64,000 nt of DNA from Altererythrobacter sp. XM-24bin4. Its GTDB lineage: Bacteria > Pseudomonadota > Alphaproteobacteria > Sphingomonadales > Sphingomonadaceae. The notes under the pieces are model-generated. The model was not told the origin of the DNA. It did not search any database and saw only the letters and a list, made by a program, of their open reading frames with translations. The position numbers were made by a program, and so were the translations under genes. Each line of letters begins with the position of its first letter. Positions within the stretch are counted from its first letter, which is position 1. The stretch is taken from assembly GCA_003149575.1 (NCBI GenBank), contig QCWG01000001.1, positions 1,269,183-1,333,182 of the forward strand. Direction: 5' to 3'. This document shows, piece after piece, positions 48,701 through 48,886 of the stretch.

Positions 48701-48886
48701 GAGTCCTCGGCGCAACACACCACTATGTTGAGTCCCGCAAACCGCAAGAGTCTCAACATCTTGTGCGGGACTCTTTTTGTTCTGTCATAGCTAACGCGGA
48801 ATTAACCATATCCCCCTATCGCTTTGTGCTTGACCCGGAGTCCAAAGGGACTCACCCTGTGGATAACTGTTACTGAGGGGTGAATT
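48701..48886 (+). promoter_or_regulatory. ccrM control region: GANTC cluster, CtrA-like box, DnaA box
   Basis: Six GANTC sites lie at 48701, 48730, 48748, 48769, 48838 and 48849 (start positions), far above the about 0.6 expected in so short a stretch. CTAA-N7-TTAAC at 48791-48806 matches the CtrA box TTAA-N7-TTAAC at all but one base. TGTGGATAA at 48858-48866 is a perfect reverse DnaA box. In Caulobacter ccrM is controlled by CtrA and by methylation of GANTC in its leader, so all parts fit a cell-cycle promoter. DnaA involvement is inferred. Confidence 0.75.
48730..48780 (+). terminator. Terminator of the antiporter gene, stem made of GANTC ends
   Basis: GAGTCCCGCA (48730-48739) pairs perfectly with TGCGGGACTC (48764-48773), and TTTTTGT follows. 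The loop is 24 bases. A competing hairpin, GTTGAG (48727-48732) with CTCAAC (48752-48757), would use part of the same left arm and so block the terminator. Both ends of the stem are GANTC sites and are methylated by the gene just downstream. Confidence 0.8.

Follow-up and report, generated by a model that had tools for sequence, protein, structure and literature searches.

NrdR is a repressor of ribonucleotide reductase (RNR) genes that reads ATP and dATP. CtrA, DnaA and proteolysis are the usual explanation for how CcrM methylation is matched to replication. The NrdR box has the consensus acaCwAtATaTwGtg (PMC4009431); NrdR requires two such boxes, all NrdRs tested accept spacers of 14–17 bp, and the Listeria NrdR binds tightly up to an 18-bp spacer (PMC12051234). 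The Caulobacter ccrM promoter is CtrA-activated and probably methylation-sensitive; ccrM is most probably under methylation control in that organism, where nrdA expression is lower without ccrM (PMC3973325) and an nrdR deletion strain exists (PMC12186491). Other Caulobacter promoters, such as ctrA P1 with GANTC at −29, carry this sequence in a sigma-70-type spacer.

We analysed the DNA before a ccrM gene in a 64-kb stretch, called the window below. The region shares with the Caulobacter ccrM promoter the downstream gene, GANTC sites and a CtrA-like box, but has six GANTC sites, compared with the two leader sites that a preliminary description of this DNA cited for Caulobacter; it also has a predicted transcription start past all of these sites, a DnaA box over that start and a putative NrdR box pair upstream. 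As in the Caulobacter spacer-GANTC promoters, GANTC lies in a sigma-70-type spacer, but here the spacer contains two sites, of which the second shares a base with the presumed −10, and the predicted start carries a perfect DnaA box. Known NrdR operators of RNR genes resemble the region in having two consensus boxes and a 17-bp spacer, and a similar pair precedes the nrdA gene of the same genome. By contrast, the putative target here is a DNA methyltransferase gene, GANTC sites lie at the inner box edges, and the corresponding boxes in seven other families of the order lie within rnhB coding sequence.

The product of ccrM is predicted to be a CcrM family protein. Its N6_N4_Mtase and RAMA domains exceed their cut-offs, and NF050803 (CcrM) is its top match at 601 bits, which is under the curated cut-off of 830. 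A calcium/sodium antiporter gene lies 5′ of ccrM and has its stop at 48683, leaving a gap of 203 bp before the ATG. Features of the region are listed in Table 1.

Table 1. Coordinates of ccrM and of observed and predicted features before it (positions in the window).
Feature	Position	Strand	Remark
GANTC site 1	48701–48705	+	GAGTC in 35/35 rows of alignment A1
Predicted NrdR box 1, CACCACTATGTTGAGT	48718–48733	.	core 48721–48730 matches CwAnATnTwG at 9/10
GANTC site 2	48730–48734	+	4-base overlap with inner edge of NrdR box 1
GANTC site 3	48748–48752	+	2-base overlap with inner edge of NrdR box 2 (4 in many relatives)
Predicted NrdR box 2, TCTCAACATCTTGTGC	48751–48766	.	core 48754–48763 matches CwAnATnTwG at 10/10
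GANTC site 4	48769–48773	+	
CtrA-like box, CTAA-N7-TTAA (one mismatch to TTAA-N7-TTAA), then C	48791–48805	+	weakly conserved
−35-like TTGACC	48830–48835	+	TTGAC in 80/80 close rows
GANTC site 5	48838–48842	+	within the −35/−10 spacer
GANTC site 6	48849–48853	+	final base is first base of presumed −10
Presumed weak −10, CACCCT	48853–48858	+	17 bp after the −35
Perfect DnaA box, TGTGGATAA	48858–48866	+	over the predicted transcription start
ccrM	48887–50023	+	N6_N4_Mtase and RAMA; best NCBIfam match CcrM

We compared the region with several sets of loci. The close set comprises the best 80 of 352 loci from a scan of genome contigs, titled mostly Erythrobacter, Qipengyuania, Altererythrobacter and their kin; the comparison has 80 rows, namely the window and 79 of these loci (L014 was dropped for having too little upstream DNA), with the ccrM start extrapolated from a partial match in six loci. 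At the level of the order, 145 of 147 genomes searched had a match, and 60 upstream stretches were taken, 40 from the GTDB family of the window (the wider family) and 20 from seven other families. A duplicate check found no sampled exact 60-mer in common between the 40 wider-family loci and the 80 close rows. At the level of the class, 147 of 173 genomes searched had a match, and 60 upstream stretches from 52 families were taken. Alignment A1 holds 35 of 120 rows, 10 close (including the window) and 25 from the wider family.

The crowding of GANTC before ccrM is real and conserved. All six sites that the preliminary description placed in 48701–48886 are present. The window as a whole has few GANTC sites (89, against a shuffle mean of 290), 0.28 sites would be expected in the 203-bp gap at the window's density (P of at least six, ~5.5e-7), and the 186-bp stretch before ccrM is the densest in GANTC, with none equal to it within the 64 kb. 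Alignment of relatives, which the same description had proposed as a check, shows the sites to be kept: at least five sites lie in 250 bp in 70/80 close rows, and at least six in 53. The distal sites keep their positions and mostly their middle base among the close rows, which methylation by itself would not require.

The strongest conserved input that we observed is a pair of predicted NrdR boxes, missed in the earlier list of inputs. The boxes are 16-mers, 33 bp apart from centre to centre, and their spacer of 17 bp is inside the 14–17 bp range reported in PMC12051234. The genome carries an nrdR gene, and its single gene matching the class I/II RNR large subunit is nrdA. We derived a matrix from 26 nrdA loci, which represent 17 further genera within the GTDB family of the window, taking the best consensus-scoring pair of each; the symmetric matrix was trained on 20 of them, with six unclear loci dropped and 14 same-genus loci omitted, so that its training leans on the published consensus and includes no ccrM sequence. 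With this matrix the ccrM pair scores 14.1 bits, the top value among 255,940 placements across the window; second place goes to the same site read in an overlapping register, and the next unrelated pair scores 8.2. Box 2 is the top single box of the window, and box 1 is weak alone (1.8 bits). Genome-wide, the sole exact match to box 2 is the one at ccrM; with up to two mismatches there are 11 + 8 = 19 matches, compared with 5 + 3 = 8 for a control pattern, so that a single NrdR box is not decisive. At the genome's own nrdA, the box pair scores 19.4 bits and ranks first of 23,944 placements in a 6-kb locus, although its spacing of 34 corresponds to an 18-bp spacer, which is beyond the 14–17 bp range. 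Fifteen upstream regions of nrdA from the same genus, one of them from the window's genome, carry two such boxes in similar places.

The pair is kept far beyond the close relatives. Pairs of at least 12 bits precede ccrM in 69/80 close rows, 37/40 wider-family loci, 20/20 loci of the seven other families and 17/60 class-level loci. The best tandem at spacing 31–34 reached p ≤ 0.01 against 100 dinucleotide shuffles in 73/80 close rows, 40/40 wider-family loci and 20/20 loci of the other families, and the spacing peaks at 33, 33 and 32 in these sets, respectively; 24/60 class-level loci also have p ≤ 0.01. The 17/60 class-level pairs, all at spacing 31–34, compare with 0.12 expected from shuffles and 0/60 in an adjacent control region; against this, 43/60 class-level loci score under 12 bits, and some of the class-level boxes lie within coding DNA (for example, in L256). 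We also permuted the matrix columns symmetrically 60 times. Permuted matrices reached 12 bits in a mean of 2.0/80 close, 0.8/40 wider-family, 0.2/20 other-family and 0.6/60 class-level loci, and none equalled the true value in the last three sets (the maximum in the class set was 14, compared with 17). One permuted matrix, however, outscored the true one in the close set (78/80 versus 69), and the close set alone is thus weak evidence. In alignment A1, C and G stand at both core ends in 35/35 rows; partner positions within the boxes gave no covariation beyond shuffles in this alignment, many being simply conserved. In its boxes, their spacing, the gene content of the genome and its conservation, the segment 48718–48766 has the marks of an NrdR operator, as far as sequence can indicate.

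In the family of the window, the two kinds of site interlock. All 77 scored rows of the 80 in the close set have a GANTC site overlapping the edge of a ccrM box, and 54 have one at each inner edge; for the wider family, the figures are 37 of 38 scored rows (of 40) and 25. An edge GANTC is also found in 1/25 scored nrdA loci (of 26) in the family's other genera, in 0/8 scored loci (of 20) for other nrd genes, in 1/20 ccrM loci of the seven other families and in 10/21 scored class-level ccrM loci (of 60). All 14 same-genus nrdA loci have one, which lies at box 1 on its outer edge. We hypothesize that CcrM methylation alters NrdR binding, in one direction or the other.

In 19 of the 20 loci from the seven other families (L195–L211, L213 and L214), the box pair lies inside the 3′ end of the frame preceding ccrM. 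A Pfam search of four of these 19 frames identified each as RNase HII (rnhB); the others were recognised by eye from shared motifs. The leucine codon that helps to spell the boxes is CTA in 19/19 loci, compared with 17 of 281 leucines elsewhere in those frames. Likewise, GGA is used in 19/19 (19/128 elsewhere) and TAT in 19/19 (23/49 elsewhere), with the qualification that GGA and TAT belonged to the search string in this count. In the window, rnhB (within 46971–47729) precedes the antiporter gene; at the corresponding codons it reads GGC where the embedded loci read GGA and TTG where they read CTA, with TAT unchanged. Because the embedded codons are fixed and the window's rnhB has GGC and TTG, we suggest that selection acts on the NrdR boxes themselves; the 19 loci are related and are therefore not independent events. 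In L212, the twentieth locus, there is no such frame and the pair appears to be non-coding. The embedded loci have a valine before the glycine, where 6 of 10 class-level loci parsed have a histidine, as if the protein had yielded to the operator. With regard to gene order, rnhB and ccrM are adjacent in the other families of the order, and in the window the antiporter gene separates them (46971–48683).

The one-mismatch CtrA-like box and the perfect DnaA box of the preliminary description are both where it put them, and its proposal of a cell-cycle switch holds in that boxes are conserved; it holds less well in that CtrA is kept loosely and DnaA is rare outside the close set. The window contains five CtrA-like boxes when up to one mismatch is allowed, so that the one before ccrM is by itself unremarkable, and a permissive pattern finds it in 40/80 close rows. 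CtrA appears to be the weakest of the inputs, and control by it is possible, with weak support. The perfect DnaA box is the sole one in the window. A perfect copy lies in the last 80 bp before ccrM in 77/80 close rows, compared with 4/40 other loci of the GTDB family; a conserved box, as expected of a DnaA-controlled promoter, is thus seen in the close set. In four loci of genera g16 and g22 (L168, L169, L190 and L191), a perfect TGTGGATAA lies between both NrdR boxes and not at the ccrM start.

The proximal part of the region resembles a sigma-70-type promoter. TTGAC-N13..15-GANTCA is found in 80/80 close rows, 26/40 wider-family loci, 17/20 loci of the seven other families and 8/60 class-level loci. 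The reading as a promoter is supported by the better −10 that the other families carry at the same place (CATGAT in 5/20, CATAGT in 2/20 and CATAAT in 1/20). The position of the presumed −10 predicts a transcription start near 48865, within the DnaA box or immediately past it and 3′ of all six GANTC sites, and DnaA at this box would more likely block than activate, because the box covers the predicted start. A gap of 64 bp separates the NrdR boxes from the proximal −35, which is a point against repression of this promoter by NrdR. By eye we found no convincing distal promoter over the boxes in the alignments, and a promoter scan found none there.

An alternative account centres on this promoter: GcrA with sigma-70 would activate it via methylated GANTC, offsetting the poor −10, and would be the main control of ccrM. 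The genome encodes gcrA, and the GANTC inside the −35/−10 spacer recalls the Caulobacter starts with GANTC between −10 and −35, which form the class activated at 40–60 min (PMC4287350). The activating motif YGAKTCG (PMC7987155) lies within the spacer in 13/20 loci of the seven other families, but occurs 0 times in 48684–48886 of the window, and a spacer copy is found in 1/80 close rows. GcrA as the main control would also leave the distal module without explanation. We regard it as a serious possibility, though the less probable outcome; GcrA activation is compatible with NrdR acting at the boxes, which we consider the best explanation of the region. It is also conceivable that CtrA, DnaA and GANTC hemimethylation alone time ccrM, with the palindromes doing nothing except flanking GANTC. 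The six GANTC sites, the DnaA box kept in 77/80 close rows and the presence of a CtrA-like box fit this idea, and DnaA sites before ccrM have been predicted mainly where ccrM lacks CtrA sites (Brilli 2010, PMC2877005). It is improbable, however: the conserved columns reach into the NrdR cores and match the nrdA-trained boxes, the boxes of the seven other families are without an edge GANTC in 19/20 loci, and the CtrA-like box is missing from half of the close rows.

A different reading takes the distal repeats as an RNA element: an attenuator, or else an intrinsic terminator serving the antiporter gene. In favour of this, a perfect 10-bp inverted repeat (48730–48739/48764–48773) is followed by T5, an alternative pairing (48725–48732/48752–48759) would be available to an attenuator, and the segment folds better than shuffles (z −2.68). 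In the 35-row alignment, however, the hairpin pairs are formed in 73.7% of cases compared with 73.0% in shuffles, with no clear excess of covariation, the alternative pairing is at 78.2% compared with 78.5% in shuffles, and the consensus structure has −0.46 kcal/mol. A comparable hairpin with T4 occurs in 9/80 close rows, and the element is absent from a terminator scan, although that scan is blind to loops of more than 8 bases. With pairing at shuffle level and no covariation, we rejected the hairpin or attenuator as a conserved element, and the RNA reading as a whole is very improbable; a species-specific terminator at 48730–48779 is possible.

We favour the reading that NrdR couples transcription of ccrM with the dNTP pool, acting on an operator that CcrM can methylate, and we estimate its probability at roughly 0.78. 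From the sequence we infer NrdR binding, repression, the transcription start and any effect of methylation, as follows. The control region would consist of two modules, a distal one (48701–48773) that would be an NrdR operator with GANTC at the facing box edges, and a proximal one (48830–48866) that would be a promoter of the sigma-70 type whose −35/−10 spacer contains two GANTC sites. When dATP is plentiful, NrdR would occupy both boxes and ccrM transcription would be lowered together with that of nrdA; as replication drains dNTPs, both genes would be released. In close relatives, with the DnaA box over the start, methylation state and DnaA would set the timing, and methylation feedback on ccrM is possible. 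A more tentative and rather doubtful extension is that ccrM has been in the NrdR regulon of Alphaproteobacteria since an early date, with an operator that became methylation-gated in Sphingomonadaceae and is written in rnhB codons in the sister families. In that case CcrM would modify adenines inside the boxes of its own repressor, so that a single operator would sense the dATP pool as well as the passing replication fork.

Among the papers listed by our searches, none addresses control of ccrM by NrdR, judged by title and opening of the abstract; databases of predicted regulons such as RegPrecise, or supplements, may list the link. The main text of Leyn 2016 (PMC5343134) contains no word beginning methyltransferase or methylase, and that of PMC12186491 lacks the word CcrM. 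Because a putative NrdR pair precedes ccrM, genome methylation may be tied to nucleotide supply: a conserved NrdR operator at this place would couple CcrM to the provision of DNA precursors, and a loop in which methylation and nucleotide synthesis act on each other would become testable.

Two further blocks flank the NrdR boxes. Upstream of box 1 is a conserved block, GAGTC-N9-ACAC (48701–48720), and downstream of box 2 is a conserved block, CTCNTTTYGTTC (48771–48782), in which the GTTC after GANTC site 4 occupies 48779–48782. The same-genus nrdA promoters are also rich in GANTC (L085 3100–3500, which is the genome's own, L110–L117 and L119–L124). In most of the 14 same-genus loci, GAAC-N7-GAAC, which we take to be LexA-like, encloses a GAATC near the nrdA start.
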